In this document: positions 2,796 through 64,000 of the stretch, piece after piece | Layout: every line of letters starts with the position of its first letter | How positions within the stretch are numbered: the first letter of the stretch is position 1 | From: Malachius bipustulatus | Taxonomy: Eukaryota > Arthropoda > Insecta > Coleoptera > Melyridae | NCBI GenBank assembly: GCA_910589415.1 | Contig: OU342630.1 | Coordinates: forward strand, 18,261,867 to 18,325,866 | Length of the DNA stretch: 64,000 bases | Direction of reading: 5' to 3' | Position numbers and translations under genes: made by a program | Notes under the pieces: generated by a model | What the model was told of the DNA's origin: nothing | The model's database searches: none | What the model saw: the letters and a program-made list of their open reading frames with translations, nothing else

Positions 2796-4237
2796 TGTAA
2801 CGTTTGGTTTTCCACCTACGTCACTTAAAACCATACAATTAAGTATGCAAATAAAGAAAATAATTTGAGCTCAGAGACTCTTACGTGATATAGGGTAAAG
2901 CCCCGATTACGGCAGGCCACGATATCGTCTGTCCTGCCAAACAAAACAAAAAAAAAAAAAACAAAACAAGGAAGAGAAAACAAGAGCTTTTATTATCTTA
3001 GGTTATAGGCTGTATTTATCAATTTATTCTCTATGAACGCTATGATAACACTATTATAACACTATAAAATTCGGTTATTAAATAATACCTCCGGAGCAGC
3101 GCTACCTCGATGGTTTACAACATTGCGTAGGTATCTACCTACCTAGGTATATCAGCCTAATTGAAATGATAGAATAACCGGTAAGTACTTATAAATTAAT
3201 ACATAATAACAAACATTAGGAAAATCAAGTTCATCACTGACGTCGGAATTCTTCCCGAGGCTAGTATGGCCCCAATGACTGTAGTGCGTGTATGACTGGA
3301 TAGTTTTTAACGTCGTACTTTTAGTGGCAGAATTGACGGTGGTTAAATAATTGGAACGTTCCTACCTTGAACGACTGGACCGCTTACGAACAAGACTTCT
3401 AGGGAAGCGGTGGCCTGGGGCGCAGTTGATGTGGCCCGGACCAACTATCTGCCGACAAGGAGTAGCCCCTTCTGTGAAGACGAGGTCGATACCAGGAGGT
3501 TGGACAGGTACCAGGTGTTCGGTCCCGAGTAGTATCACCGAAGCTCGAGATGAGGTAAGACAGCTCCCCAAAATTCAACGAAAAGGGAAAACAAAAACTC
3601 TACAAGAACAAATTAGAATATTAGACAGTGGTCTGTAATGGAGATTTTGCTCAATCGACTTACCCCTAGTCCCTAGGGAGTTTTGTTTAGGCACTTTAGG
3701 TGGTGTAAGAAGACACAAACAACAGCTTTTCTATCCCTGTACAGGAATGGTTCCCTTAAACTATCCTTAAAACAACCAAGGATACCCGATGAACCAATTC
3801 TCGTGTGGGCCTACTAAATCCCCGAAGGTACAATTGAAACAAATTGTTACACAAGGCCAACACTAGCTGCTCTGGTCTCTTATGCCCGTAGTAATTAGCT
3901 AATAATTAACTGAGAATTGAAAAATCTCCAAAAATGAATATATCAAATTATAATAATTATTAATTCCAATTATCTCTTGCAGATAACACTGATAAAGAGA
4001 AATCTAAATACGGAGGTGAGCATGGACTGTCCAACAAGAGAGAAACTGAATGAAAAGCAAGACAGAAAGAAAATACAACAATTTCTATACTATCCAGGAG
4101 GTGATATACAGGATGGTCCTAAACCCTAAGCTTGACTCTAATATCAACTAACCAAAACATAAATAAAACAAATCACAGAATCAAACACATAAATAATGCT
4201 TCCTTTTTTTTTCTTATTATAATTTACAAGTGTTACA
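2796..4237 (-). repeat. 3' LTR of the gypsy element (left side of the window)
   Basis: 1442 bp, beginning TGTAACG and ending GTTACA on the plus strand, so bounded by TG...CA. It contains a GC-richer block at about 3360-3560 within otherwise AT-rich sequence. It differs from the right LTR only around 3056-3063, by one indel and one substitution. Open frames of 95 (plus) and 69 (minus) codons in this block start at TTG, not ATG, and are not called as genes. Confidence 0.95.
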
Positions 4238-4252
4238 CCCCACCTCCTCTTC
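4238..4252 (-). other. Polypurine tract of the gypsy element
   Basis: On the element strand this reads GAAGAGGAGGTGGGG immediately before the 3' LTR. It is the expected primer site for plus-strand DNA synthesis in reverse transcription. Confidence 0.85.
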
Positions 4253-4323
4253 GACAGAGGAAAAACTTCATCAGGTGAAGATTTTCCGGAGAATGGGAGG
4301 ACCCGAGTGTTGGTGGTGATAAT

Positions 4324-7300
4324 TTACCCTGGTTCAAAGTCTTTAGCGATGTACGGTTTCAAGTCCTGCACGTTCCAAATTCCCTTTGATCTTCCATTTT
4401 CATCGCTCAATTCATAGGTCCAACGGCCCACCTTCTCCTTGACGGTGAACGGCCCTTGATATTTAGGAGCTAACTTCGCGTTGATGGCTTGTGCGGCATC
4501 AGAGAGTATCTTACTCCTCCTCCAGACCTGGTCTCCTTGCTGAAAGTGGACAGGTCTTCGACGTAGGTTGTAGGTCTTCTGGTAGCGTTCATTTGCAGCT
4601 TTCAAACGCTTCGCTATGTCCTCATACATCTTTTGAAACCCTATCCGTCGTTTTTCAACTTCCGAGTCCAAGGTGAGAGTCTCAGCAGTATCACTCCCCG
4701 ATTGATGCCCTTGGCCATCACCGATATAGTTCCGACCAAAATTGACAAAGAACGGCGAGTATCCCGTAACCTCGCTGCGAGCTGTTCGTAGAGCGCAACC
4801 TAGTGCCGCTAAATTGTCATCCCACTTCCGATGGTTATCTTTAACATAGCAGGCTATCATCGTCTTGACCGTCTTATTGACTCTTTCACACGGGTTGGCT
4901 CTGGGATAGTACAGAGGGGTAAACATCAAATCCGCATGATACTGACTACATAATTTCTGGAACTCTCTACTCTTCATTTGCACTCCATTATCACAAATAA
5001 TGTTTTTAGGGACTCCATATACCAGGAAGACACCCTCTTCAACACAACGGCAAAGCACTTTGGAGGTGGCGGAACGTACCGGAAATAGGAGGACATATTT
5101 ACTGAAATAGTCACTGACCACTAACATATGCGTGTTCATTTTGCTTGACCTTGGCAGTGGGCCCACAAAATCCAAACTAATGGTCTGCCAGGGCTGCGTG
5201 ACGACCGGTCTACTTCCCATCAGGCCTGCAGGTGCTTTTTGTTCGGGCTTATTCGCCGCACAGACTTGACAAGAGCGGACATACTTCGCAACGTCCGCCT
5301 GCATCTTCGGCCAAGTGTACTTTTCGTACAGCTTCCAGTACACCTTATATGATCCAAGATGACCGGAAGTTACGTCATCGTGGTAGGTGTGGAGAATGTC
5401 CTTGCGGTGGTCCTTTGGCACCACAACTTTCCATTTCTCTGCATCAACGGCCAATTCTGGTAGTCGAGACTTCACGTATTTGTAGAGTGTTCCTCCTTCG
5501 ACTCGGAACTGGGGATACCTTCGTGGACTATCCTGTACCTTCTCGACCATTCTTCGGTACCAAGGATCTTTAGCCATGTCGAAAGAGCCTACGTGAAGGT
5601 GAATGGACTCAACTTGAGGAACGCTCCGCGATAGGAAGTCCGGAACAATATGGTCCTTCCCTTTTCGATGCACGATAGTGTAGTCGAAGGGTTGGAGTCG
5701 TATAGCCCATCGTGCCAGACGTCCTGTTGGATCCTTTTGGCGGTCGAGCCACACCAAAGAGAAATGATCGGTGATAATGGTGAAGTGAACTCCTTCCAAA
5801 TAGTGACGAAGCTTTTCCACGGCCCATAATACAGCTAAACACTCACGTTCGGTCGTGGTGTAACGTCTTTCCGGTTTCGTCAGAGATCTGGATAGGTAAC
5901 AGATCACTCTCTCTCCATCCTCGAAGTTCTGCGACAGCACGGCTCCAAGGCCAAAGGCTGAGGCATCTGTCTGTAGGACAAATGGTCGTTCAAAATCAGG
6001 ACAAGTCAAGATTGGGGCCGATACTAAATGGTCCTTGATTCTTCGGAAGGCCTCCTCACACAACTTTGTCCATAAGAAAGGCACGGACTTCTGGGTGAGT
6101 CTTGTCAACGGTGCCACAACCGTAGAGAAGTCAGGTATGAACCTTCTATACCATCCACAAACTCCTAGGAATGAACGTACCTGGGGTGCTGTTGACGGGA
6201 CTGGTATATTTAAGATGGCTTCCACTTTCTCGGGGTCTACTCTAAGACCGGTTGAGTCGACGACATACCCCAGATATTTCAGGGAGGGTCTACAAAAATT
6301 GCACTTCTCCCGCTTGAGAGTGAGTCCAGCGGCAGTGAGGCGATCAAAAACTTTGCCGAGGATTTCCAGGTGGGTTTTAAAATCTGGACTGATGATTATG
6401 ACATCGTCGAGATAAACAAACACATGGGGTTCTAGATCCGCACCCAAAACAGTGTCTACAAGTCGAGACCAGGTGGCAGGGGCATTGGTCAGTCCGAAAG
6501 GCATTCGCCGGAACTGGAACAATCCCCTCCCAGGAACTGTGAAGGCGGTAAATTCACGACTAGACTCCTTCATTCCTACCTGCCAATAGGCACTCCGAAT
6601 GTCCATGGAACTCAAAAACTTTGCTCCTCTAAGGCGGTCTAGTATAGCTGACACATAAGGAATGGGATATGCGTCCTTTTTCGTGACAGCGTTCAATGCT
6701 CTATAATCGACACATACCCTATAGCTGTTATCCTTCTTGGGTATTAAGAGCAATGGTGACGACCATGGACTCTTTGAAGGCTCCACAACACCAAGCTCGA
6801 GCATCTTCGTCAGCTCTTCATCAATTATCTTCTGCTTCACCGGGGACATGGGATAGTAGCGTTGTTTAATAGGTCTCGCATCCGTCACTATCTCATGTTC
6901 GACCAAGGTAGTGTGACCTAAATGGGTTCCCATCTCGAGGAATTTTTCTTCTAAGAGCTTGGTCAACTCGGATTCCTGCACAGGTGTTAGGTGTCCTTCA
7001 GCCAAAATTCCGCAAATGGAAGGGCTCATCTCTCCCCGACCAAAATGCCACACGTCGTTTCGAAGATCAGGAACAATATTCATGGTAACCCAAAAATCCG
7101 CTCCCAGAATCAACGTCTGCGGTAGCTCAGGTATTACCAGCATTTCCATCACGTGAACCTGGTCCAACAAACGAATCGGTGCACTGATCACGCCAAGACT
7201 GGCGCACGAGCCTCCATTGGCGACAGTAACTGAGATCGAACTGGGCTGAAGTTTCAAACCAAGCTTCCTAAGGAGATCATATCCAGTCTGTCCTACGCAG

Positions 7301-7491
7301 GTTGTTGTTGCACCTGAGTCCAACAAACCAAGCATTTTGCAGCCAAAAACAGAAACTTCCACGTAAGGGCGGCAGTCTCCCTTAGCATGGGATAACACAT
7401 ATTCCAATATACAATGAATGTTGGGGTTAGCCGGTTTAGCAGATCCACAGTCATTCAGCCGGCTTACTGATGACTTCGCTCGGCGTTTCCC
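4324..7491 (-). CDS. pol: Pol polyprotein (protease, reverse transcriptase, RNase H, integrase) of a gypsy-type retrotransposon
   Basis: The open frame runs from about 7506 to the stop at 4324, 1060 codons counted from a non-ATG TTG, so it is almost certainly expressed as a Gag-Pol fusion by -1 frameshifting at 7485-7491. Using residue numbers from 7506: protease DSG at 63-65 (LLDSGATTTC); RT with CVDYRALN at about 265, MPFGLTNAPATW at 335 and YLDD at 365-368; RNase H with LQTDAS at 511-516; integrase zinc region with H709, H716, C746 and C749; catalytic D779, D839 and E874. The D839-E874 spacing is exactly DX35E. A GPY/F-type module follows (KLAPKYQGPF near 1011). No chromodomain is seen. 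All catalytic residues are present and there is no internal stop. Confidence 0.95.
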   Translation of the reverse strand, partial: GKRRAKSSVSRLNDCGSAKPANPNIHCILEYVLSHAKGDCRPYVEVSVFGCKMLGLLDSGATTTCVGQTGYDLLRKLGLKLQPSSISVTVANGGSCASLGVISAPIRLLDQVHVMEMLVIPELPQTLILGADFWVTMNIVPDLRNDVWHFGRGEMSPSICGILAEGHLTPVQESELTKLLEEKFLEMGTHLGHTTLVEHEIVTDARPIKQRYYPMSPVKQKIIDEELTKMLELGVVEPSKSPWSSPLLLIPKKDNSYRVCVDYRALNAVTKKDAYPIPYVSAILDRLRGAKFLSSMDIRSAYWQVGMKESSREFTAFTVPGRGLFQFRRMPFGLTNAPATWSRLVDTVLGADLEPHVFVYLDDVIIISPDFKTHLEILGKVFDRLTAAGLTLKREKCNFCRPSLKYLGYVVDSTGLRVDPEKVEAILNIPVPSTAPQVRSFLGVCGWYRRFIPDFSTVVAPLTRLTQKSVPFLWTKLCEEAFRRIKDHLVSAPILTCPDFERPFVLQTDASAFGLGAVLSQNFEDGERVICYLSRSLTKPERRYTTTERECLAVLWAVEKLRHYLEGVHFTIITDHFSLVWLDRQKDPTGRLARWAIRLQPFDYTIVHRKGKDHIVPDFLSRSVPQVESIHLHVGSFDMAKDPWYRRMVEKVQDSPRRYPQFRVEGGTLYKYVKSRLPELAVDAEKWKVVVPKDHRKDILHTYHDDVTSGHLGSYKVYWKLYEKYTWPKMQADVAKYVRSCQVCAANKPEQKAPAGLMGSRPVVTQPWQTISLDFVGPLPRSSKMNTHMLVVSDYFSKYVLLFPVRSATSKVLCRCVEEGVFLVYGVPKNIICDNGVQMKSREFQKLCSQYHADLMFTPLYYPRANPCERVNKTVKTMIACYVKDNHRKWDDNLAALGCALRTARSEVTGYSPFFVNFGRNYIGDGQGHQSGSDTAETLTLDSEVEKRRIGFQKMYEDIAKRLKAANERYQKTYNLRRRPVHFQQGDQVWRRSKILSDAAQAINAKLAPKYQGPFTVKEKVGRWTYELSDENGRSKGIWNVQDLKPYIAKDFEPG
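7449..7491 (-). promoter_or_regulatory. -1 ribosomal frameshift signal between gag and pol
   Basis: On the element strand the slippery heptamer GGGAAAC (7491-7485) is in register as G GGA AAC in the gag frame, and slipping back one base yields GGG AAA C in the pol frame. A 9-nt spacer follows, then a stem-loop at 7475-7449: AGTCATCAG pairs with CTG-A-ATGACT, nine pairs with one bulged A and an 8-nt loop. The gag stop TAA (7466-7464) lies in the loop. This is the textbook layout of a -1 frameshift element. Confidence 0.85.
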
Positions 7492-9140
7492 GAGCAGGTC
7501 GGACAATTTTGAACGGTGTATCCCTTAGTCCCACACCGATAGCATGTCAAGGTCGACGCTTGCGGACAGGAAGATCTCATGTGTCCAGTTTGTTTGCATC
7601 GCCAGCAGATGAGATTGGCGTTACGAACTTGGGTCTCGGGATTTGACGGATTCTTCTGTATCGCCGCTAATTTCCTAGGGCGGTTGGAGTTCAGAGGGTG
7701 GTAAGCTAAGCTAGGCTCCTGCAGCAAATTGGCATTGGTGGTGGGGGGACAGTACTGTTTTGCCCTCCATCGCGATTCTTCAATGACTCTGCCTAACTTC
7801 AACAACTCGTCTATAGTCTGAATTTCTTGCAGCGCCAGGGCCGTGTGCAAGTACGGGAGCAAATTTCTTCGGATGAAGTGAACCTGCTCTTCCTCAGAAG
7901 GCGGACTTGCCAACTTGCCAAACATGCCCTGCATGCGAGAGACGAACAATACCAGTTTCTCATCCGGTCCCTGTGTCCTCCTCCTTATATCTTCCAGCAG
8001 GTTAGCTTCGTAGTCCGGCGGTAAGAAGGCATCTCTTAGTTTCCTTTTAAAATCCATCCAGTCTCGGAACTCGTACTTCCTAGGTCGATACCACAGCAGG
8101 GCATCTCCTTTCAGGAATTCCGACGCGGCAAGGAATAATTCCTTCGGGGAAACTCCTCGAGCCTCTGCCATTTCTTCGAGGTCTTCCAGAAATGATGTCA
8201 CACTTCCACTACCATCGAAGGTCAACTTCCATTTCCAAAAGTCGCGATAAGTTATGTGGGCTCCACCTGGGCGAACTCCTATTCTTCCTGAATATGGTTC
8301 CAGAAAAGTTGACGAAGACTGAAGACGATCAGAGGGTGGAAACTCGACAACAGGATTCTCTTGTGGATATGCAGAGAAGGAAACGCGTCTATTTTGACAC
8401 CCATCCGCATTCTCCGACCCTGAAGGAAAATGCATTCGATTCAGCTGTCGAGATATCTGCTCTGCACCTCGGACACAGGACTCTCTTTGTGCTACATTAG
8501 GTCCATGGTGGTTGTCGTGAGAGACTGTTGCCACACAAGTTGAACTAACATTCACCTCTGGAGCTAGACCGAAATCGATTAAGTCTGCTACTGGAAGATG
8601 GGGCTCTTCCTGAAACGAATGGCTAGACGTATTATTCGGTGTTGCGCCACGGTTCCCAGAGGACCTAGATACAATCGAGGGTAATAAGAGATTAGGCTCA
8701 TCTAAGATGGACCTCTCCGAGGATTTATTTGTCCCGAGTTGAGCTATCTTCAACGCATCCTCCAAAGCTTCAAATAATCCATTATAAAACATGAATAAAT
8801 TACTCTTCTTCCTTTCTTCTACCGGTGTTGTCGTAGCTATTCGTCTAAGTCGACCTTCTATGTGAAGCAATCTGGATTTGATTCTACGATAGTCGTTATC
8901 AAAGTTCTCATTATCGAAGTCCTGGATGCACCCCGTGAGATCATCAAGTTTTGCCGAGCAAATATCAAGCTCACCACCTGAGTCACATTTGTATTCGGAG
9001 GTGAATGGTACTCCATTCTTTTCCGACTGAAGCGCTTGTCGAAGCAAATTTCGTTTTTCAGCGACGGTAGCGCCTAATTCGCAACCTCTTACCAGCAGTT
9101 CATATGTCAACTCATCACCAAGCAAGCGATTTACCTCCAT
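7464..9140 (-). CDS. gag: Gag polyprotein of the gypsy-type retrotransposon
   Basis: 558 codons from ATG at 9140 to TAA at 7466-7464. The N-terminus (EVNRLLGDELTYELLVRG) resembles the SAP-like helical start seen in many insect gypsy Gags. A capsid-type region lies around residues 290-470 (LTFDGSGSVTSFLEDL onward, with LLWYRPRK). The nucleocapsid end carries CWRCKQTGHMRSSC at 512-525, a canonical CX2CX4HX4C zinc knuckle, and CYRCGTKGYTVQNC at 533-546, where the zinc-binding His is replaced by Tyr. The frame overlaps pol by 43 nt in the -1 register. The role, particle formation and RNA packaging, is inferred from the family. Confidence 0.92.
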   Translation of the reverse strand: MEVNRLLGDELTYELLVRGCELGATVAEKRNLLRQALQSEKNGVPFTSEYKCDSGGELDICSAKLDDLTGCIQDFDNENFDNDYRRIKSRLLHIEGRLRRIATTTPVEERKKSNLFMFYNGLFEALEDALKIAQLGTNKSSERSILDEPNLLLPSIVSRSSGNRGATPNNTSSHSFQEEPHLPVADLIDFGLAPEVNVSSTCVATVSHDNHHGPNVAQRESCVRGAEQISRQLNRMHFPSGSENADGCQNRRVSFSAYPQENPVVEFPPSDRLQSSSTFLEPYSGRIGVRPGGAHITYRDFWKWKLTFDGSGSVTSFLEDLEEMAEARGVSPKELFLAASEFLKGDALLWYRPRKYEFRDWMDFKRKLRDAFLPPDYEANLLEDIRRRTQGPDEKLVLFVSRMQGMFGKLASPPSEEEQVHFIRRNLLPYLHTALALQEIQTIDELLKLGRVIEESRWRAKQYCPPTTNANLLQEPSLAYHPLNSNRPRKLAAIQKNPSNPETQVRNANLICWRCKQTGHMRSSCPQASTLTCYRCGTKGYTVQNCPTCSGNAERSHQ

Positions 9141-9906
9141 AGCGAAAAGTTACGTTATAAAATCCCAACGAGAAAACTCAACACTAAACGTGTTAATAAT
9201 TTGTATATAATGTAAATATGTAAATAATTGCTAGTTATTGAATTAAAGTAAATATTTATGACAGGGATTGGTAGATTATCTATTTATCGGAGTGCATAAT
9301 TTATTTCCCCAGTTAGAATTAATCTTTATTCTAAATATCTTCCTAATTTATCGCTGGATTTAACTTATTTATTAATTAAATATATTATCAAATAATATTA
9401 TTATCACTATGTACAATTACCCACAAAATTCCAATCAAAATAAAGATATATTTACAACGACTTTATTTAAACCTAATTACTCGCATTTAAATCATTATCA
9501 ATTCAAGCACAAATTCTTCAGATAAAACCATGGGGAAAAAAAAACTAAATTATCAGGACTATTATTATCACTTCCCCATAAACTACAATAAATTTTACCT
9601 TGATTCTAGGATTTAATATATTAGCAAAATCTAAAAAAAAAATCCTGTATACCCCCACCCTTCCTTAGAAGAGGTGAAGAAAAAGAGAAAAAAAATGAGG
9701 TACCTATCACTAGTAACCTAGACACACCTATGTAAAAAAAAATCCAACAATTATTATATACAGACACCAACCAAAATATAGTAATCACAAAGCAGATGAA
9801 ATATAAGTTTATCATCAACCAAAAAAAAAAATATCAAGTAGGTAGGTACTATCCAGTCCACCGAATTTTTGAAAAAAAAAGTAAACTTGAACGGGCAATA
9901 ATTATT
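9141..9906 (-). other. 5' untranslated leader of the gypsy element
   Basis: About 770 bp between the primer-binding site and the gag ATG, very AT-rich with several A or T homopolymers and no convincing ORF. Packaging signals would be expected here, but none can be named from sequence alone. Confidence 0.7.
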
Positions 9907-9919
9907 ACGTTGGGCGCCA
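9907..9919 (-). other. Primer-binding site matching tRNA-Lys
   Basis: The element strand reads TGGCGCCCAACGT two bases downstream of the 5' LTR. This is complementary to the 3' end of insect tRNA-Lys(CUU), which ends ACGTTGGGCGCCA. The match is 13 nt and then stops. Confidence 0.85.
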
Positions 9920-9921
9920 GA

Positions 9922-11362
9922 TGTAACGTTTGGTTTTCCACCTACGTCACTTAAAACCATACAATTAAGTATGCAAATAAAGAAAATAATTTGAGCTCAG
10001 AGACTCTTACGTGATATAGGGTAAAGCCCCGATTACGGCAGGCCACGATATCGTCTGTCCTGCCAAACAAAACAAAAAAAAAAAAAACAAAACAAGGAAG
10101 AGAAAACAAGAGCTTTTATTATCTTAGGTTATAGGCTGTATTTATCAATTTATTCTCTATGAACGCTATGATAACACTATTATATACTATAAAATTCGGT
10201 TATTAAATAATACCTCCGGAGCAGCGCTACCTCGATGGTTTACAACATTGCGTAGGTATCTACCTACCTAGGTATATCAGCCTAATTGAAATGATAGAAT
10301 AACCGGTAAGTACTTATAAATTAATACATAATAACAAACATTAGGAAAATCAAGTTCATCACTGACGTCGGAATTCTTCCCGAGGCTAGTATGGCCCCAA
10401 TGACTGTAGTGCGTGTATGACTGGATAGTTTTTAACGTCGTACTTTTAGTGGCAGAATTGACGGTGGTTAAATAATTGGAACGTTCCTACCTTGAACGAC
10501 TGGACCGCTTACGAACAAGACTTCTAGGGAAGCGGTGGCCTGGGGCGCAGTTGATGTGGCCCGGACCAACTATCTGCCGACAAGGAGTAGCCCCTTCTGT
10601 GAAGACGAGGTCGATACCAGGAGGTTGGACAGGTACCAGGTGTTCGGTCCCGAGTAGTATCACCGAAGCTCGAGATGAGGTAAGACAGCTCCCCAAAATT
10701 CAACGAAAAGGGAAAACAAAAACTCTACAAGAACAAATTAGAATATTAGACAGTGGTCTGTAATGGAGATTTTGCTCAATCGACTTACCCCTAGTCCCTA
10801 GGGAGTTTTGTTTAGGCACTTTAGGTGGTGTAAGAAGACACAAACAACAGCTTTTCTATCCCTGTACAGGAATGGTTCCCTTAAACTATCCTTAAAACAA
10901 CCAAGGATACCCGATGAACCAATTCTCGTGTGGGCCTACTAAATCCCCGAAGGTACAATTGAAACAAATTGTTACACAAGGCCAACACTAGCTGCTCTGG
11001 TCTCTTATGCCCGTAGTAATTAGCTAATAATTAACTGAGAATTGAAAAATCTCCAAAAATGAATATATCAAATTATAATAATTATTAATTCCAATTATCT
11101 CTTGCAGATAACACTGATAAAGAGAAATCTAAATACGGAGGTGAGCATGGACTGTCCAACAAGAGAGAAACTGAATGAAAAGCAAGACAGAAAGAAAATA
11201 CAACAATTTCTATACTATCCAGGAGGTGATATACAGGATGGTCCTAAACCCTAAGCTTGACTCTAATATCAACTAACCAAAACATAAATAAAACAAATCA
11301 CAGAATCAAACACATAAATAATGCTTCCTTTTTTTTTCTTATTATAATTTACAAGTGTTACA
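9922..11362 (-). repeat. 5' LTR of the gypsy element (right side of the window)
   Basis: 1441 bp, TGTAACG...GTTACA. It carries the promoter for the minus-strand element transcript by analogy with other LTR elements. It is essentially identical to the LTR at 2796-4237, including the GC-rich block now at 10485-10690. The only difference seen is near 10182-10188 (TATATACTAT here against TATAACACTAT in the other copy). Confidence 0.95.
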
Positions 11363-16155: not shown

Positions 16156-16314
16156 TATTATAATATGCCTCCTTGAATCGCTTGAATTATATTGTATGAT
16201 TTGAGATTTCTTGGGATTTAGGTTCTAGTTTAACTTGCCATCAGTTGCCACTATAGGTTCTTAGCAAAACAAATTAAGAAAATTTTCGCACAGCATGAAG
16301 GATGAAACTGAAGA

Positions 16315-16360
16315 CATGGACGGTACCGCTTTGTCCTTGTCATGGACTCCTCAGCATGTC
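16315..16360 (-). ncRNA. Degenerate hammerhead ribozyme motif
   Basis: On the minus strand: stem I GACATG/CATGTC (6 bp), then CTGAGGA (position 7 may be any base), stem II GTCC/GGAC, then AAAG where an active core needs GAAA, then a short stem III and a GTC-type cleavage site. The loss of G12 and change of A15.1 should inactivate it. It is the inverted partner of the better copy at 16433-16480. Confidence 0.55.
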
Positions 16361-16432
16361 ATATCATCACGAGACAGGGATAAATATTACTTCCAAATTT
16401 CGTATGTTATGTGTAGTGTGTGTCTGACGTCT

Positions 16433-16480
16433 GACATCCTGATGAGTCAGTAAAAAGGACGAAACGGTACCGTCCATGTC
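16433..16480 (+). ncRNA. Type I hammerhead ribozyme motif
   Basis: Core CTGATGA (16439-16445), stem II GTC/GAC with a 9-nt loop, GAAA (16461-16464), stem III ACG/CGT closed by GTAC, and cleavage triplet GTC ending at 16474. Stem I pairs GACAT (16433-16437) with ATGTC (16476-16480), but the pair next to the core is a C-C mismatch. All invariant core bases are present. Activity may be lowered by the mismatch. Confidence 0.7.
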
Positions 16481-16597
16481 TTCAGTTTCACCTCACATGC
16501 TGTGCGAAAGTTTTCTAACTTGTTCTGCAGAGAACCTATAAAGACAAGTTAAATAATAACCTAAATCCTCGCCTAAATCAAAAGAAATCGCAAATCC

Positions 16598-17803
16598 AAT
16601 TAACAATAAGTGATACCCATTGCCGCATGAGGGCGCTGTGAATCTTGTCCTTTGATTTAGGTGAGGGAAAACGTCCGGTAATGTTAGTTGAGCGTATTTG
16701 ATAAACCGACGGATTATACATACCAAATATAAAACAGACAAAGTGATCAGTTGTCGATTTAACATCAACAATACGTCTAAAATTTCAAAATCGGGGAGTA
16801 TTTTTTTTATTATATTTTATAGTTTGAACACAATAAAATAACAAGCATATCTATGGATGATAAATCTTCAGATATATGTAAATGAATAAAATTATTCATA
16901 TAAAATATTAAAACATTTGTGTTTTATTAATCATCCATCAGTATGCAGAGATTCTACAAAGTAAGGGCTGAAAACATAAATTTGAACAATCATATCAAAT
17001 ATTTTTAGCAACATACAAGAAAAATGGGAACCGACGGGCGTACCAATAATAACTAGAGGATCTTTAATGTTTATTTCCTTTGTTTCCTATCTTGATTGAT
17101 ACTGGCCACTATTTTTGTAGCAACCTTTTCAGGGGTTATCCAATAAAGGAATAAATCTTCGATGAAACACTATCAATGAAAGAAAACTCCGCCTCAGGGA
17201 GAACTCTCGTGAGAGGTACAATTTTACAGCCTCGTTTGTCTCAGAAGAACGTTTATTGTATTCTCTGAACTGGAAACATAAATTTTCCTTATTAAAGAAC
17301 GTTTTAGACGCCGCGTCAGTAAAAGCGACGAATCGAAGGGCACAACAAACATGGAAAGATGAGCATTAATTTATTGTGCCTTCAGAAACGTTTCTAATCA
17401 AATTTCTCATGAATCTTGAACGTGAGAAATGATACAAACTCCAAGATTTTTTTTTTATTTATTTACATTATCAACTTCATTAAAATGAAGGTTTAATGAA
17501 ACTTTTTTCCACTGTGCGGCATTTTCGTAAAACACTGCTATATCCAATGTCAATAACTGTTCACCCCTCAGTTTTTTTTTTTCTTATTATGGAGCGTTAT
17601 GCTTAGGTGCAAATAAAAGCGCCACCAATTATTTCTTCCAATTTAAGTGTTCGCGTATTTTTACCCTCTAGTAGGTATGAGGGTATTATTTTATTTTGAA
17701 TTACATTTATGATAAATAAGTCTAAAACAAAATTGTCCCTATGTTTTAGGAATATTTTTTCTGGACTACATATTTTATAAAATGTTGCCTCTATTATGTA
17801 AAT
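16598..17803. other. Intergenic, nothing recognised
   Basis: AT-rich sequence with poly-T runs. No ORF with family resemblance and no clear inverted repeat pair were found. Confidence 0.5.
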
Positions 17804-25184: not shown

Positions 25185-25680
25185 ATTTTAAAAAAGGTAA
25201 CGACACACCCAGATATACTCCACTGAATTAAAATTTTTTAATTATGTAGGTACTTCAATTAGTACAACAACTGTCAAAAATTTCGAATTATTCTGATCAG
25301 CCAATTTTTATACAGGGTGATTCAAAATTCAGTGCAAATATTTTAGGGGCGTATTTACAAGTAAAAAAAAAAAAAAAAAATTATCATATAATAAAAAAAA
25401 AAATAAAAGAGTACTTAATTAATAAAAAATCGATTTTTTTTCAAAATTTTACCTAGTATCTAGAAAACGAAGCAAGTTAGGACATACGATTATATGATAA
25501 TTTTTTTTTATTTTTGACTGGTAAATACGCCCCTAAAATATTTGCACTGAATTTTGAATCATCCTGTATAAGTATCTATTAAAAAAATAATACATTTTTC
25601 TAAGAACTTTAACACTTTGTATCTCGAAAACTAAAGCTCCAAAGACGCCTACAGGGAATATTTCGCATATTTTTGCATTT
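25185..25680 (-). mobile_element. Diverged fragment of the 14232-16155 mariner family, split by a MITE
   Basis: Blocks AACGACA, TCGAATTATTCTGATCAGCC and TATCTCGAAAACTAAAGCTC occur in the same order as in 15870-16060. They are interrupted at a TA by the element at 25313-25566. Only the terminal non-coding part of the family is present. Confidence 0.5.
25313..25566. mobile_element. 254-bp palindromic MITE (CAGGGTGATTCAAAATTCAG)
   Basis: TA-flanked, with the end sequence mirrored at 25547-25566 (CTGAATTTTGAATCATCCTG). The arms continue as TGCAAATATTTTAGGGGCGT. The interior is A- and T-rich homopolymer sequence. Confidence 0.75.
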
Positions 25681-33518: not shown

Positions 33519-34466
33519 CCCGCGAGTGGTTGCTAGATGAGCGTTTAGCTCACCATTGTCTTTAAACTGTAATTATTATGTTATTTGAACTCGTACAATC
33601 TTGTCGATTTTTCTAGCTTAGTTTATAGCCTTAAGAAGAAACATAGAAAGGATTTTGTAATGAAAATCGGGTAAATTTATTTTTTATGGACACTTCATTC
33701 ACCGCAGTTGCCGCCGCGCGAGCTAAACGCTCATTAGCAACCACCCATGTCACTCAACTGCTCTTATGTTTAGGTCTGCTAGCCATATGCAAGGGTTACT
33801 GTAATTTCTCTATCTGAAGTTATTTGTTGTTTTTATGGTATATGGTATTAGCTTAGTTAAGAATCGAATCAGTTTGTGTTATTTAATGTAAAAAAATCCT
33901 ATAGTTATATGTATACCAAAAAAAAATGATATTGGCAAGTTAACATTATTCCTCCTTATTTTAAAATACCTACAACAAATATTGCCAATACAGGGTGTTA
34001 GGTTATCGGACAGCCTAAATAAAATTTCATATACAAAACCGCATCATAAGCATAAAAAAGAATAATTTTTTCCTGATCGGGCTTCGTTCAGGAAATATTT
34101 CCAAAAATCTAAAATTAAATCATGTGTAAATATTTTATTTTTTTAAGTACATAGACAGCCAAATTAAAATTTCATCAAAAATTTAATTAAAATTTAAATT
34201 TTTATTTGTCTTATTAAAAAATAACAACTTTTTCCAGGTAGGGCTTTGTTTAGGAAATACTCGGGTAAAAAAAACAACGCCTGATCTGGAAATTCTTATG
34301 CTTCTAATGCGGTTTTGTAAATTTAATTTTAGATGTTCGATCACCAAACACCCTGTATTGTAATTCATAGTGCTGTTTATTTCACATTTGCTTGTTGAAT
34401 CTACATGCGAGCGAAACGCTCGCTAGCGACCACTGTGTTACAATGCACCTAGCGACCAATGCCGGG
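33519..34466. mobile_element. piggyBac-like element with TTAA duplication
   Basis: TTAA at 33515-33518 and 34467-34470 flank ends that read CCCGCGAGTGGTTGCTAG (left) and CCCGGCATTGGTCGCTAG (complement of right). CCC ends plus TTAA are the piggyBac signature. Subterminal copies of GGT(C/T)GCTA..GAGCGTTT.GCTC recur near both ends (33527, 33715, 34405). No transposase remains. A mariner-type MITE is nested at 33991-34355. Confidence 0.7.
33991..34355. mobile_element. 365-bp MITE nested in the piggyBac-like element
   Basis: CAGGGTGTTAGGTTATCGGA at the left; the complement of the right end is CAGGGTGTTTGGTGATCGAA. TA on both sides. The arms stay similar for about 110 bp (ACAAAACCGCAT, TCCTGATCGGGCTT). 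Confidence 0.8.
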
Positions 34467-51874: not shown

Positions 51875-52120
51875 CGTCACTTACACAGATGTCACTACTT
51901 GATACAAGTCCCGGAGTTCCATGTGAATTATCCATATATAGTATCAACTGATCTTTAGCTAGAAGTAGACAATCACGATTGTTGACATGCCGATGAGCTC
52001 TAAGAAGAGCGAAATGGCCATCCATGTCTTCAGCATTGTTTTTTTCTGCTTTTGACTTGAGATCAGTATTATCAATGAGCCCTAGAACCCAAACATACGT
52101 CTTCTTTTTACTTAATGTAA
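51875..52120 (-). CDS. Possible minus-strand exon, unidentified
   Basis: The minus frame reads VLGLIDNTDLKSKAEKNN, MDGHFALLRAHRHVNN and LLLAKDQLILYMDNSHG, balanced in composition, and ends at a GTAAGT donor (minus strand, about 51878-51883). The upstream boundary is unclear (AAAAAG before AAGACG is a poor acceptor). There is no recognisable domain. It could equally be a transposon-derived exon. Confidence 0.3.
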
Positions 52121-52179: not shown

Positions 52180-53642
52180 ATAGTAGCGTGTGTGAGTCGG
52201 AAAAAAACCCGAAAATTGTAAATATTTTGAGCCGGAACAAGATTACTTCCCCCCTCCGTTTTAGATGATGCTGAACACGATGACGTTGTCAGAATTTCTC
52301 TTTGGGGTTGCGCAACCCCTCAAAACGGCCCAAAACCACCCCCTAGAGAGATAAACCGCGCTTCAATCCATTTCCCTGCAAAAAAACCTTCCCCCCGTTT
52401 TCGAGGATGCTGAGCACAATGGAGGTGCTGGACATCGCGTGCGACTCCGACCAACCCCTCCACCGGCCAATACTCACCCCCGAAATGGGTGATTTTTTTT
52501 TTGTATATGTAGGCCAAACGATGGACTTTTTCGAAAAACTTTTTGAAAATTCAAGTACAGAATCACAATGGCCATAATTTAAAATTATCTTGGAGTATAA
52601 AGAGTGTCCCATATGACAGTGACATATCAAAGTTATGTTTTTTTAAATGGAATGCTCCTATGTTATTGCATTTTTAGATTGTCTGAGAAGAGGAAATTAA
52701 ATTGGCTTTTACAGTTGGTGTTTAAATTCAGAAGTTTTTGAGTTATAAACAAGTGAAAATCGTCATTTTTCGAGTTCAAGGCCCTGTACAACGAAATCGG
52801 TTCAATATAGAGAAAAACGGCTTACATGTCCCTATTTTAACTTTTTATGTACTATCCTATGGTATAGTTTGTACTTTCTTTGATTTTTTTATTTGGCGAA
52901 GCGTGGAGAAATCTCATATTTTTTCAAATTTTTTATCACCCTGTATAAACATTTCATCCACATCATAGGATAGTACATGAAAAGTTAAAATAGGGACATG
53001 TAAGCCATTTTTCTCTATCTTAAGCCGTTTTCCTTGTACAGGGCCTTGAACTTGAAAAATGACGATTTTCACTTGTTTATAACTCAAAAACTTCTGAATT
53101 TAAACACCAACTGTAAAAGCCAATCTCATTTCCTCTTCTCAGACAATCTAAAAATGCAATAACATAGGAGCATTCCATTTAAAAAAACATAACTTTGATA
53201 TGTCACTGTCATATGGGACACTCTTTATACTCCAAGATAATTTTAAATTATGGTCATTGTGATTCTGTACTTGAATTTTCAAAAAGTTTTTCGAAAAAGT
53301 CCATCGTTTGGCCTACATATACAAAAAAAAAAATCACCCATTTCGGGGGTGAGTATTGGCCGGTGGAGGGGTTGGTCGGGGTCGCACGCGATGTCCAGCA
53401 CCTCCATTGTGCTCAGCATCCTCGAAAACGGGGGAAAGGTTTTTTTTTTTTGCAGGGAAATGGATTGAAGCGCGGTTTATCTCTCTAGGGGGTGGTTTTT
53501 GGCCGTTTTGAGGGGTTGCGCAACCCCAAAGAGAAATTCTGACAACGGCATCGTGTTCAGCATCCTCGAAAAGGGGGGGAGGAAGTAATCTTGTTCCGGC
53601 TCAAAATATTTACATGTTCGTCCGACTCACACACGCCACTAT
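52180..53642. mobile_element. 1.46-kb near-perfect palindrome: GC-rich MITE with a second palindromic element at its centre
   Basis: ATAGTAGCGTGTGTGAGTCG at the left is mirrored at 53623-53642. The outer arms of about 325 bp (52180-52506 and 53322-53642) are GC-rich, contain the perfect palindrome GGGGTTGCGCAACCCC, and carry a twice-repeated block like TTTTCGAGGATGCTGAGCAC. The inner 52507-53321 is a copy of the family at 21886-22395. The centre, about 52865-52960, is unpaired and contains ATCACCCTGTATAAA. Open frames of 76-97 codons on both strands are mirror images and not genes. Confidence 0.85.
52507..53321. mobile_element. Inner palindromic element of the TGTAGGCCAAACGATGG family
   Basis: ATGTAGGCCAAACGATGGAC at the left and its complement at 53300-53321, flanked by TATA on both sides, sit at the symmetric centre of the GC-rich arms. 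Blocks such as AGAGTGTCCCATATGACAGT, CTCCTATGTTATTGCATTTT and GGCTTACATGTCCCTATTTT are shared with 21886-22395 and the older copies. Confidence 0.8.
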
Positions 53643-57823: not shown

Positions 57824-58177
57824 ATGAATATAACAAATTGGGGAACTCCTAAATCATCTATGAGAAAAACTTCGAAGAAAAACGTATCGGATAGTTTCCG
57901 ACTCGCCAAACACGGTAGCGACATTTCGAATACGCCAACAAAAACTCTCGAGTTACTCTCAGATTCCAGTTTAACAGCTTCAATGTGCGATGGAGAATTC
58001 TTGAAGGTTTTCAGGAATATGGAATCGTTTCTGCATTGGAAACAAAAATATGACGACATTTACACGTCTCCTGCTAATGCGCTCGTTCTTGGTGACAAAT
58101 CTATAATTTATTCTTTATGCACATTCTTTTTATTTTGGAAGTCACAGCTGTTGCACTTCTACATAACTTTTCCATAA
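57824..58177 (+). CDS. Hypothetical protein or exon, 117 codons
   Basis: ATG to TAA, with balanced codon use over the first about 95 codons (pieces: MNITNWGTPKSSMRKTSKKN, SDSFRLAKHGSDISNTPTKT, FLKVFRNMESFLHWKQKYDD). The N-terminus is basic and Ser/Thr-rich; the last 25 residues are hydrophobic and look like intron or noise, so the true coding end may be earlier by splicing. No signal peptide, membrane segment in the first part, or known domain. It stands alone between transposons. Confidence 0.4.
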   Translation: MNITNWGTPKSSMRKTSKKNVSDSFRLAKHGSDISNTPTKTLELLSDSSLTASMCDGEFLKVFRNMESFLHWKQKYDDIYTSPANALVLGDKSIIYSLCTFFLFWKSQLLHFYITFP

Positions 58178-58322
58178 TCGAAATGTCTAAGATTCATTAT
58201 CAAAATGTTTTATTAGTGTAATTTTGTGTGTAAGAAATATGTAATTTTCTGTTTATCTGACAAGTAGTGCCTTGAGTAGTTTATTTTTTTAATGTAATAG
58301 GTAATTAGTGTTTCATACTTAA

Positions 58323-58929
58323 CCCTGAACTGGTATCGTGTTTTCACGAAACGTAACTGGTATCGTGGGGTGTTCTGACACCCCAAATACAATATTATTT
58401 TAAAATTGAAACGACTTTTGCTTTTAAATCTTTTTTTTTGATTATTTACTTTTATGAACTATAACCTAAGTATGGAATATAAAAAACAAAACATTTTTCG
58501 TCAATAACAACATAAAATAACAATTTACTCAACTTATTGCATAAAACTATAAATAAAATCGGCATTCTTTGTTAATCATCACAATGAGTCTTATAATGTT
58601 AAATTAAAAAAATCGTGTACTTATAATAAATCTTGAAGGTCCATTCTTACAAACTGAATAAAAAAACAATTTTATATATAATTTTAATGGCCATATAAGA
58701 ACAATAGTAATATATTGGGAACTTTAACTGGTATCGTGGGGTCGTTGCACACCCCAAGTTTTTTCACAAAATTTTTAATTTTCTATAGTCAAATGCAACA
58801 CTGTTTCATAGATGACTTTAAGTTAGGAGAATACCTGAAACAACAAAACAAATAAATAAATTGAACCACTTCATTTTACAAAAATGTAGACCCTGGGGTG
58901 TCAAAACACCCCACGATACCAGTTCAGGA
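58323..58929. mobile_element. piggyBac-like MITE with TTAA duplication
   Basis: TTAA at 58319-58322 and 58930-58933. Ends CCCTGAACTGGTATCGTG (left) and TCCTGAACTGGTATCGTG (complement of right). The motif AACTGGTATCGTGGGG is repeated inside at 58360 and 58728, and GGGGTGT..(G)ACACCCC forms small hairpins next to it. Non-coding. Confidence 0.8.
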
Positions 58930-59375
58930 TTAAGACCGACCATGCTAACATGAGCTCTATATAGATCTCATTAATGGCTGTCAATGTATATTTGAAGATG
59001 GGTTAGAATTAGAGTAATTTCAACAAAAATTTTTTGTTATGTAAATCAGTACCAGGTTCTTCGTTTCTGCGTGTACCACCTAATTATTTCACCGACTAGG
59101 AATTCTTTTAACATATCATCCTTAAAAAGTGATTTCCGGAAAGAAGTTGACTACTTATATTATAAGTTTTTTCTACTCTGGTGGATCAATCAAAATTTGT
59201 AAATTTGATAAAGAGAGCAAAGCTGTGAATAAGAACGATAACTGACATTTCTCAGAATCCACGCGTGCGCAGTCGCTACTCAGTACTGGAATTACCTACT
59301 GCTTATTCCAGGCAGTAAAATAAATATCAAAAAAATTTATTAAAAAAAAAAAAAATTGATAACATTTTTTTTATA

Positions 59376-59940
59376 CAGAGTGATCAGTAACTCGCGCACT
59401 CAGACCATGTTGCGGTAGACTTCACTTTTTAAGAGTGGTAAATATTCTTACTGCAGTATTGTAAGTTCTTTTCTTCCAAAGATATGACCATTTTTGTAAA
59501 AAAAAGGTGGCAACATTGCACTGAACATGTGAATAAGTTCGGGCTAGAAGGTATTGTTATTATTTTTATTTACATAGCAACGAAAGCATTTGAATATTTT
59601 ATATTTATTCTAGGTTGAGTTTAGGCTGTTGCCAAACTTCAAATTTCGTTCAGATTTAGGTATGGTATCAATTTCCAACATTCTCAATTCCTCTGTAAAG
59701 AGGTTTTGTGGAAAAAAATTTATGAATTATATGGTATCCGTTCCAGACATTACAGTAACCTAAATTTTTCATTAATTTTTATCACGGTTATTGAAAAAAA
59801 TACCTTTAAACTTGGATGAGGGAAACTCTGTAACTTGAAAACCAACCGTTGGCTTAAATTTTTTTTTTGCAGAATATCCTTAATTTTAATGGGCTCTATA
59901 TCGCCCTGTATTCGGAGTGCGCGAGTTACTGATCAATATG
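59376..59940. mobile_element. TA-flanked element with GATCAGTAACTCGCGCACTC ends
   Basis: 565 bp. A terminal inverted repeat of about 26 bp with three mismatches near the tips; the shared core is TGATCAGTAACTCGCGCACTC-like, shown here as GATCAGTAACTCGCGCACTC. TA on both sides. No coding sequence. Confidence 0.7.
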
Positions 59941-59958
59941 TATATAAGGGTCAAGTCA

Positions 59959-60608
59959 ACTCAACGATTAATTAAAAATAAAAGAACGAAGGTAGGTCAT
60001 ATGAGTATAAGTATAAAGCACATAAAGTGCAATTACTAGCCTATTAGGTGGGATCGGAGAATACCTCCATCGCCCATAGCAGTTGTCCTGCTGGCAGTTA
60101 TTTTATTTTTAATTAATCGTTGAGTACTTATGCTTGCCATTTTTCTCTTATTCATGATTGTCAATCGACTGGCATTGGTGGTGTCTGAAACTGTAATAAA
60201 CTTTGAGTGAACTCACGGTTAGTTCTTTAGAATGACCGCTACATGTCGCTCTACTTTACACCACACGGAGATCCTGGCAACACACGGTGTTACTGGCTTA
60301 TTTGAGATAGCCAAACTTCCATTGATCCAGCAGCATCCTCCGGATACTCCAGATGCAGCACACTGAAGAGCCCCAGTAGGGCGAAACACGTGTCTGTGCT
60401 TGTTCTGGTACTCTAGCTGGCTCTGCTGTTGGATGTGGAAGCTCTCTAGATTGAAGTTTTGGGCACTGCTAGCATGACAACTGTTATGGGCGATGGAGGA
60501 ATTCTCCGACCACACCTAACAGGCTAGAAATTGCACTTTATGTGCTTTATACTTATAGGTACTCATATGACCTAGCTTCGTTCTTTTATTTTTAATTAAT
60601 CGTTGAGT
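59959..60608. mobile_element. Inverted-repeat cassette carrying an intact hammerhead motif, possibly Penelope-derived
   Basis: The left arm from ACTCAACGATTAATTAAAAA (59959 to about 60090) is mirrored at about 60475-60608, including AAGCACATAAAGTGCAATT and CTCCATCGCCCATA. The block TTTTTAATTAATCGTTGAGT also occurs directly repeated at 60108 and 60588. Mixed inverted and direct terminal repeats around a hammerhead resemble pseudo-LTRs of Penelope-like elements; no GIY-YIG or RT coding remains, so this is inference. Confidence 0.55.
60357..60400 (+). ncRNA. Type I hammerhead ribozyme
   Basis: Stem I AGCACA (60357-60362) pairs with TGTGCT (60395-60400). The core is CTGAAGA (60363-60369; position 7 is free). 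Stem II is GCCC/GGGC with a 5-nt loop. GAAA lies at 60383-60386, a 2-bp stem III AC/GT is closed by ACGT, and the cleavage triplet GTC ends at 60394. Every invariant core base is present and all stems pair perfectly. The very short stem III is as described for hammerheads in Penelope-like elements and retrozymes. Confidence 0.8.
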
Positions 60609-60636
60609 ATACTTGCCATTTTTCTCTTATAAATAC

Positions 60637-60875
60637 ATTGATTTGTCGGAAACATAGTGACTTGCAAGGCAAATGCCATCTAACGACTGAAAGTATACAA
60701 CTTTCAATACGTCATTAGAGATTCTCTCAGAAAAATTTACAATTTTTCACTGCCATTTCTGACCGTTCATCGAGAAAGCAATTACCTTGCGAATCTCAAT
60801 AAATAAATCTCAATAATACTTTCAGTCGTTAGATGGAATTTGCCTTGCAAGTCACTATGTTTCCGACAAATCAAT
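60637..60875. mobile_element. 239-bp palindromic MITE (ATTGATTTGTCGGAAACATA)
   Basis: ATTGATTTGTCGGAAACATA at the left is mirrored at 60856-60875. The arms of about 63 bp continue through GTGACTTGCAAGGCAAAT and CTAACGACTGAAAGTAT, with a loop of about 110 bp. No target duplication recognised. Confidence 0.75.
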
Positions 60876-63100
60876 ATTCTTAAGTATGTTGGTTTTCTTT
60901 CTGCTTTGACATACTTCTCTGATGGTGATAATATTATGTCAGACTGATGGGCTGGAAATAACCAGTGATCATCGATGTCTCTGTCTTTTTCATACCATTA
61001 GGGTTGTGTCGTTCAGAAAACGTTATTGTTTCTTAATAATCGAAATGCTGGTAATGGATATGACTTAATTATTGTATCAATTTGTTTCTTAGTTCTCATT
61101 AGTTCCATCAATAGCTTGATGTCGTTCGAATATCGCCTTGAATTACTTAAATTTCGATGCAATTTTCTAAGTGCTGTTGGAAATATTGATAAGACGCCAA
61201 GAAAAATCATCCCATATCTAGCTATTGATCCGTATGTGAAATAATATTCTATGAATAAAATTGTTATTTTAAACAGGCAATGATGATAGAAGTAAGCGTT
61301 GTAAAAGCTCCCGAAGAGATAATTTTATGCTTTCCCGGTAATTCAGTACAACATGGGGGACAGGATCCAATCAGATAACTGATTCCCGTGGGAAATTCTT
61401 TTCGTTCCAAGTTTGAGAAAGTAATCCAGGAGAAAGTCTTAAAACTCCAACACTAAATAATCATCATTACGATGTAAATTTCGGGTTGATTTTGCCAGAA
61501 TTATTTCACCACTTACCAAATTATCCGGATAAAAAGCTTAAGAAGTATCTGGCTACCCATTTTAATTACAAATTCGTATAATAAAGGGTAAGCTCTGGTT
61601 TTTATATTTTAATTACTTGCGGAGTAAATTACCCAATTTATAAGGATTTACATTCAAGGCCTAGCAATAAAATTCCCCAAGGAAAATACCGCGTGGGGCC
61701 TTCCATTTGAGAGAAGCAGACAACTAACTTCCTAAGCCTCTGTCTGCTGCTGGCGACAAAGTGCAATAAGGCGGGTATTCTGTCTGACAACTTCTCCAAC
61801 TAGTTAAAATACTGAGAAAGTTTTTTAGGACAAGTTATTGATGTTTACAAAATAAAAGAAATCTGTTGCGACATTAGCTGTTCATCCAAATCTGCGCTAT
61901 AACTTACATCGCTTTGAAGTGAACTTAAAGCTAGTTCGACAGGTATGGCCAATAGCAGTCTAAAATTGATTCTCGAAGTTTATAATTTAGATTTGGAACA
62001 TCCGACAAATTTTGTTATAAGTAACAGAGATATGTTCGAAACTTATTAAAACTTAGGTGGAATGACAACAAGATTAATGTTTCAGTAGGTAGGTACTTAA
62101 TTCAGCTCACTGAAGATAATTTTGCCATCAATCGAAATCTTGTTACATGATGTTCGATTTAATTTTTTCTAATTATTCTCCAAACAACATGCCTATTGCT
62201 AAAAAAAATAAGTTCAATACGAGCAGGTGTAAGCCATGAAACCATGAAAGATCAAAGACAAGAGTAAAAATGAAAAGATAAACTCTGATGTAAATCATTT
62301 TGTATCAGGTTGGCAAAAAAGATCATTTCACTTCGAAGTTATCGCCTCCATGAGACAAGCAAGCGCTGATCTCCCACGGGTTGAACTAGTTTTGTTCCGC
62401 CCGTGGTGCACACAGTACCTACTTTTTTAGCACGTGACATAAGAAACGTCACATTTCGTTAAGATACAGCCGGCGAAATGAAGGCAATAACGCGACCGCT
62501 CACTTCACTAGCAGATGACTAGATTCACTTCAGCACGCTTCTGTTTGATTTTAAATCGATTTCGTCTAGATCGAAATTTGTCGCAAAATTTTCATTTCAC
62601 AACGACGACACTTGTCAGATTGCCAGTTGATCCCATAATGATACACTGTGGGGTGCACGAACGTCTATTAAAAGTGATTATTCAATTATTATTACAAATG
62701 ATTAACGCGTAAATCATTGAACAATCATTTTTACCAAGCGTTCTATAAATTTACAAGCGTTAAATAAGTATACCACGGGCGGATGAACAGAATTACTATT
62801 ACAATTCGTATAATTAAATTAAAACAAATACTTGATTATGAAGGGATTTCTTTCAGCGATTTTCTTGCGACGGTTTTCGATGCAATTTATTTAGCGTCCA
62901 ACAATGACAACTTACAAATGAGCAGCATTCATGCAAAAGCTGATACATTCACTTTTAATGGAAAATGAGTTAGATACCGTTTCCTATTAATTTAAAGGTC
63001 CACTATCGATTTATCAACTCTGATTCAAGCAAAAACCGATACTTCCCATGTAAAGTTGGACAGTTCGAACAAATACCGATTAATCCCATATTCTTTGCAA
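60876..63100. other. Intergenic, nothing firmly recognised
   Basis: CGCCCGTGGTG at 62398 and CCACGGGCGG at 62773 form a weak inverted pair. Short ORFs (for example at 61026 and 62515) lack domains. No gene supported. Confidence 0.4.
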
Positions 63101-63373
63101 AACCCTGTAAATCTATGTTTTCAACCCTTACTTCGTAGAATCTCTGCATACTTATTGATTATGAATAAAACACTAATGTTTTATAAAATTCTACTATATA
63201 TTGATCACTTAGGTAATACTGTTGCTATGTTACTGTATCAATAATTTTATTTACGTCTGAAGATGCTACATGAAAAGTAGCGAAACACGTGTAACGTTTC
63301 TACCATCCATCAATATATAGTAGAATTTTATAAAACATTAGTGTTTTATTCATAATCAATAACCCTGTAAATC
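63101..63373 (+). mobile_element. Small hammerhead cassette with 51-bp perfect inverted repeats and 13-bp direct repeats
   Basis: The direct repeat AACCCTGTAAATC is at 63101-63113 and 63361-63373, likely a target duplication. Inside, 63155-63205 (TTGATTATGAATAAAACACT in front) and 63309-63359 are exact inverted copies over 51 bp. A hammerhead motif lies in the 103-bp loop. No ORF. Looks like a complete non-autonomous element of about 250 bp. Confidence 0.65.
63253..63297 (+). ncRNA. Hammerhead ribozyme motif (one extra base at stem II)
   Basis: Stem I ACGT (63253-63256) pairs with ACGT (63294-63297). The core is CTGAAGA (63257-63263), then one unpaired T, stem II GCTAC/GTAGC, GAAA at 63282-63285, stem III AC/GT closed by ACGT, and cleavage triplet GTA ending at 63293. 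Core bases are all present; the inserted T between core and stem II may weaken or abolish cleavage. Confidence 0.65.
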
Positions 63374-64000
63374 CCTGTTGCTACACGTATTGCCATCTGT
63401 TTTTGTAATATACTTGATATAAGTTATGCAATAGTCTTCAGTTCTTGTATAAAAGATTACTAGAACGGCAGAATACCCATTGTAGTACTCTATATGCATG
63501 ATTGTGATATTTCTGATGTTTTTCTCTTAATTTCGCGGCAACTTTGACTTGCTGTAAGTAAGATTTCGTAAAGATACGTTTGACTTCAAATAGTTCACAA
63601 ATATGCATGCACAAGGAATAGAAAATAACAGTGAAACCAATATTTTGATGCGAGTCGCCAATCAGGGTAAAAGTAACGGGCGTAAATATGAAAATAATAA
63701 GATACTAAAAATTATAAAATGAAATTTTAAAAGCATTTCTCTATCATAGTCTAGCGGACGAAAACTTGCAATATGAACATGTTGTGAGCCGTTTTTCTAT
63801 ATTTTTGGTCGCAACTATGTCATAGACCTCTGTGCGCAGTAGTTACAGGAAAAGATGCACCGCCAACGCAGGTCAAAAAAGATATTTTCAGACAGCCAAG
63901 TGGCTCTAAAAACCCGTAGTTCCAGCCACTGTAAGTCCCAGTTGGCCTAGAACTGTCAACTAACCTTGAATGTTCTAGCAAAGGAGCCAAATCTGATTTA
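63374..64000. other. Intergenic to window end, nothing recognised
   Basis: AT-rich, without ORF or repeat structure that I can support. Confidence 0.5.

Follow-up and report, generated by a model that had tools for sequence, protein, structure and literature searches.

Previously, PLEs have been described by an RT combined with GIY-YIG, by pLTRs that also occur inverted, and by a short tail (available text of PMC3846280, PMC8969392, and PMC11167929). Pen2a of Adineta vaga, for instance, has an RT and GIY-YIG frame, a pLTR and an inverted pLTR, a tail of 31 bp that is called optional, and a short duplication of 9 bp; self-priming on an antisense template has been proposed for rotifer PLEs (both from portions of PMC3846280). 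In vitro, the lizard PLE Poseidon of Anolis (PAc) cuts and extends both strands, with two adjacent start sites that bound the tail and are alike on the top and bottom strand, and insertion works without the hammerhead, which lies at the pLTR-ORF junction (PMC11167929, in part). Further steps of PLE insertion await validation, according to portions of the same report. Metazoan non-LTR retrozymes are short and low in G+C, and consist of tandem units with a type-I hammerhead and duplications of more than 4 bp (PMC7229834, in part).

The present study concerns an element in a window of 64,000 nucleotides, the window being the whole stretch of DNA analyzed. Judged by its sequence, this element is a very short, severely 5′-truncated, two-armed copy of a PLE of the RT and GIY-YIG type. 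Like Pen2a, its family combines such a frame with a pLTR, an inverted pLTR, a short tail, and a short duplication. Unlike Pen2a, the window copy has no coding part, being made of two 3′-end pieces of the PLE and nothing else; its tail measures 43 nt instead of 31 bp, and where the Pen2a tail is optional, the tail here stands on exactly one end of each two-ended copy. The likeness to PAc lies in the two start sites that bound the tail and in the cutting and extension of both strands, as we propose below. However, PAc shows no strand difference in vitro, whereas here the sites are divided between the arms of each genomic copy. Small size, low G+C, a type-I hammerhead-like motif, and a duplication longer than 4 bp are shared with retrozymes, but those are tandem hammerhead units, and the window element is an inverted pair of pLTR pieces. 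The original prediction had suggested a new class of mobile unit; this suggestion falls away. The available text of PMC3846280 already describes inverted pLTRs in PLEs, accompanied by a tail and a short duplication.

Layout and family of the window element

Features of the window element and of one relative, in window coordinates
Feature	Position	Strand or sequence	Basis or remark
Target-site duplication, left copy	63101..63113	AACCCTGTAAATC	Exact repeat; string varies among related copies
Target-site duplication, right copy	63361..63373	AACCCTGTAAATC	Exact match to left copy
PLE tail, 43 nt, outer end of left arm	63109..63151	-	Same 43 nt 3′ of pLTR at one end of relatives
Left arm, 97 nt, PLE 3′ end with tail, reversed	63109..63205	-	BLAST against longer copy; reaches -54 from no-tail end
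Joint of arms, TGAT common to both	63202..63205		BLAST alignment to longer copy
Right arm, 161 nt, PLE 3′ end (pLTR piece) without tail	63202..63362	+	BLAST against longer copy; reaches -161
Inverted repeat, 54 bp, left half, common to both arms	63152..63205	-	Exact match
Inverted repeat, 54 bp, right half	63309..63362	+	Exact match
Hammerhead-like motif of PLE kind, expected cleavage after 63293	63253..63297	+	Core letters; recurs in family; no Rfam match
Fragment of second copy of the element's family, 75 bp	16909..16983	-	89% identical to 63109-63183

The 13-bp direct repeat of the original prediction is exact on both flanks. The perfect inverted repeat also exists, although it was given as 51 bp and matches over 54/54 positions, which is the stretch covered by both 3′-end pieces of the PLE. 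Exact inverted repeats with arms up to 400 bp apart reached at most 14 to 28 bp per window in 15 second-order Markov simulations; therefore, chance origin of the 54-bp repeat is excluded. The window holds nine further inverted repeats of at least 38 bp, so long inverted repeats are common there. A stretch of 38 bp (63114-63151) separates the left direct repeat from the inverted repeat, whereas the right half touches its direct repeat, and the two ends of the element are thus unlike. The outer end of the tail overlaps the last bases of the left target-site duplication. Other repeats of the window have TACAGGG ends, which CCCTGTA in this duplication resembles; the resemblance was dropped as a short match.

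A 38-mer from the arm, searched with up to 3 mismatches in the window's own 544-Mb genome, has 974 places (494 forward and 480 reverse; a two-armed copy contributes two), while its reversed control has none. Among 100 exact 38-mer places listed from one contig were 29 close pairs and 42 singles, and the pairs were head-to-head in 29/29 cases. A genome search with a tail-bearing query gave at least 87 matches, with 40 of 2189 candidates scored. In longer copies, the arm sequence stands 3′ of a reading frame. One such frame (L024, 405 aa) carries RVT_1 (E 7.1e-09) and GIY-YIG (E 1.8e-05), i.e., both PLE domains in one frame beside the repeat; GIY-YIG alone was found in frames of L014, L009, and L035, and no Pfam domain was found in L022. 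A protein search gave 214 relatives. The best among the 120 listed carry RVT_1 together with PF26215, with GIY-YIG present as well in some, and those named include the beetles Harmonia, Onthophagus, and Diabrotica. A 1058-aa open frame at L032 (1570-4743, minus strand) was considered as a PLE protein and rejected. It consists of a LINE-like reverse transcriptase with a 5′-truncated PLE inserted in frame, and its RVT_1 match was not used.

Tails, arms, and joints of the sister copies

Exactly one end carries the tail in 45/45 copies that have a PLE 3′ end at both ends, a count made of 43 copies scored by script (39/41 and 4/4) and two settled by reading. The 41 copies of the scripted set came from the tail-bearing query (18, L035 among them) and from the 38-mer (23), and the script placed the tail on the right only in 25, on the left only in 14, and on neither end in 2. 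Reading of the latter two showed a tail at one end each, hidden by deletions; their duplications are 15 bp (L047, by script) and 9 bp (L071, by eye). Four further copies (L099-L102) have one tail each. The tail-bearing query could favor tailed copies, whereas the 38-mer pattern is without tail; 34/45 two-ended copies come from the 38-mer list, and one tail is present in 34/34 of them. These 34 comprise 27/29 exact pairs and 7 listed singles with a differing partner arm, the pairs 45858845/45862015 and 51892548/51896713 being left out of the copy count. Loci retrieved twice were counted once, 21 single-ended loci were counted apart, and all counts come from one genome and essentially one family. 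In the portions of the PLE literature consulted, the one-tail rule was not found; it may be partly known (Arkhipova 2006; Evgen'ev and Arkhipova 2005; Craig 2021).

Target-site duplications of 8 to 16 bp, most frequently 12 bp, flank 43/45 two-ended copies, close to the 8 to 15 bp or so expected of PLEs, and the window copy is among them. The 43 strings are all different and 75% A+T; two copies (L017, L062) have 5 bp only and no convincing duplication. Of the original prediction, the discrete insertion and the genuine target-site duplication hold, the direct repeat lying outside the family consensus. What does not survive is the stand-alone unit of 247 bp with its own termini, since the two-ended relatives span 173 to 2031 bp with joints at differing places.

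Measured from the no-tail end, arms extend 34 to 1361 nt upstream (39 copies). Within one copy the two lengths are independent of each other (54 and 848 nt or 253 and 1073 nt, for example), and over the 39 copies they are correlated, with a Spearman coefficient of 0.61. The joints vary: some contain AT-rich filler, and at others the arms share as many as 13 bases; exact sizes depend on the ends of the BLAST alignments. Comparison of the two arms within each copy at 8 variable sites gave 210/219 agreements against 132 expected (L047, whose right arm is misassigned there, is included), and arms differ by 0.8% within copies against 2.3% between copies. Furthermore, both arms stop at the same template base in 4/39 copies, against 0.27 expected, and 0/5000 permutations reached 4. 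These four (L007, L023, L029, L083) look as if both cDNAs had run off the 5′ end of one RNA. The agreement of subfamily bases, the correlated arm lengths, and the same-base ends together argue that both arms came from one RNA or from RNAs of one source, and in some copies perhaps from one RNA with a given 5′ end.

By script, 21 loci show one PLE 3′ end, 17 without and 4 with the tail, and 15 of the 21 were read by eye. An inverted internal PLE piece that falls short of the 3′ end is present in five (5/21; L016, L030, L033, L034, L046); there the second strand may prime elsewhere, or pieces may get lost. These five depart from the simple rule and count against it. A clear inverted tail stub stands at the other end, inside the duplication, in L036 and L045, and a short one of about 9 nt in L037; L041 is ambiguous. 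Three loci (L009, L040, L042) appear one-armed, with a duplication and no tail, and two (L010, L015) have one arm and a tail, with no clear duplication. Weakly, this hints that the no-tail start is seldom the missing one.

The hammerhead-like motif and other elements of the window

A central hammerhead had been proposed for the element. Its core letters are present, as read by eye: CUGAAGA, stem II GCUAC/GUAGC, GAA, stem III ACAC/GUGU, A17, and a 4-bp stem I ACGU/ACGU. However, one additional U sits between A9 and stem II, the motif failed a strict hammerhead grammar (2 matches in the window; 0.05 per simulated window), and it had no Rfam match at gathering thresholds, at E≤5 on 58000-64000, or at E≤10 on the whole window. 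The exact 37-mer that includes the extra U recurs in 43/58 distinct sequence contexts among family loci; therefore, the extra U is a form of the family and not decay of the window copy. Of the minimal type-I hammerhead that characterizes PLE pLTRs, the family shows the core letters, together with this U.

Compared with the expected cut, the arm ends lie beyond it in 71/78 arms, short of it in 6, and within 3 nt in 1 (39 copies; L047 and L071 left out, L099-L102 not included). Hammerhead cleavage as the source of the arm ends, and with it the suggested processing of the element by its own ribozyme, is not supported, given these arms that run past the cut. The hammerhead would rather be a passenger in the pLTR than a motor, and cleavage need not occur for insertion.

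Other hammerhead-like motifs in the window belong to other families. One of them, at 60357-60400, matches Rfam Hammerhead_1 with 34.7 bits and lies in 59952-60630, which consists of an inverted piece followed by a partial tandem of about 480 bp. A genome search gave at least 47 matches to it, with 40 candidates scored. Its relatives stand head-to-head, with preferred arm ends at query positions of about 131 to 133 or 165 to 171, about 35 nt apart. Three loci (L089, L096, L097), with one arm end of each kind, fit the pattern of the first family, whereas in L098 and in the window copy the ends lie elsewhere; the remaining loci of L088-L098 show a tandem run-on or a single visible end. L088-L098 yielded no reading frame of the first PLE family.

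The palindromic stretch 16198-16596 carries a hammerhead-like motif in each arm (16433-16481, plus; 16309-16363, minus). Its relatives, 81% identical, are arranged in tandem at 573 to 574 bp and in mirrored groups (plus plus minus minus), and look as if retrozyme-like tandems had also been inserted two-armed. A further motif at 51984-52028 has complete stems and one core change (CCGATGA), and lies 150 bp before a 1.46-kb palindrome (52180-53642). The window also contains a long-terminal-repeat retrotransposon (2796-11362) with repeats of 1442 bp that are 99.9% identical and two long minus-strand frames (4324-7524 and 7464-9149), which we take to be Gypsy-like by its motifs, and palindromic repeats with TACAGGGTG-like ends (25308-25571, 33986-34360) that are apparently common in the window.

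Proposed insertion from both target strands and its rivals

Across the two-ended copies, the PLE 3′ end anchors both arms, which stand head-to-head and meet at an arbitrary point, with the duplication outside; the outer (tail) site is the start of one arm, and the start of the other lies 43 nt inward. Given two fixed start sites, a staggered cut, the same template, and a free joint, two target-primed reactions, one per strand, are the simplest explanation, which agrees with the cutting and extension of both strands and the two start sites of PAc in vitro. The PLE enzyme would nick the two strands of the target about 12 bp apart, and each target 3′ end would then prime reverse transcription, the two strands using different ones of the two adjacent start sites. 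One RNA, or RNAs from one source, would serve as template for both cDNAs, whose ends would be united by end joining with few shared bases or AT-rich filler, and gap filling would yield the target-site duplication. Such an insertion would leave the inverted repeat, and with it the resemblance to a complete mobile unit, as by-products. That two-armed copies arise by reverse transcription primed from both target nicks, with two start sites, the same template, and end joining, is in our judgment likely.

L1 twin priming, where two target ends prime on one RNA and an inverted segment results, resembles what is seen in the window element. In L1, however, the second primer lands inside the RNA, whereas in the 45 copies here both arms begin at the 3′ end; internal pieces appear in the five other loci described above.

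A single cDNA could also produce an inverted arm by snap-back self-priming, its end folding back and being copied. The near identity of the arms within a copy, the same template base reached by both arms in more copies than expected, and the many joints with short shared bases would suit this route. Yet snap-back predicts equal outer ends, and the tail makes them differ in every two-ended copy; arm lengths are often hundreds of nt apart, and filler lies at many joints. We therefore regard it as unlikely. A later inversion or gene conversion in a one-armed PLE copy, for which the perfect arm identity of the window element would indicate a recent event, is scarcely credible, as the same order recurs within a separate duplication in 43/45 copies and thus points to a step at the time of insertion.

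Both remaining rivals assign the element to another class. As a metazoan retrozyme, it would be a small non-autonomous retroelement spread through hammerhead-made circular RNA, which its size, low G+C, type-I hammerhead-like motif, and duplication of more than 4 bp would allow (PMC7229834, in part), and the relatives of 16198-16596 provide a tandem arrangement in another family of the window. Instead of a tandem of 150- to 450-bp hammerhead units, however, the element is an inverted pair with one motif that Rfam does not match, its family has a protein-coding part, and few arms end near the cleavage site, making a retrozyme very improbable. A long perfect inverted repeat with a flanking duplication would likewise be expected of a transposase-driven MITE or fold-back DNA transposon. 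But the left repeat lies 38 bp inside and the ends are unlike, the duplication length is not fixed, the inner joint differs in every copy shown, and relatives carry RT and GIY-YIG, with no transposase gene seen between the same ends; we give this origin next to no weight.

The sister copies suggest that PLEs can enter the genome by copying from both cut DNA strands at once. Within this bilateral target-primed reverse transcription there would be a division of labor: per insertion, priming would occur at the tail site for one strand and at the no-tail site for the other, on the same or sister RNAs. The two subunits of an enzyme dimer would probably carry this out, and the cDNAs would be joined head-to-head. 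The use of one site per strand within one insertion is what we infer from the genomic copies; the equal start-site use on both strands in vitro (available text of PMC11167929) counts against it. We lean only slightly toward this division, against which the five loci with internal pieces also weigh.

The present study also calls for caution, as a truncated PLE with a hammerhead, inverted repeats, and a flanking duplication can mimic a new mobile class. If the division of labor is true, the "optional" tail and the inverted pLTR would be a single built-in asymmetry and not two separate oddities. Through the single tail of each two-ended copy, the arms from the same template, and the free joints, these two known oddities become a rule open to testing, both in bench experiments and in other genomes.
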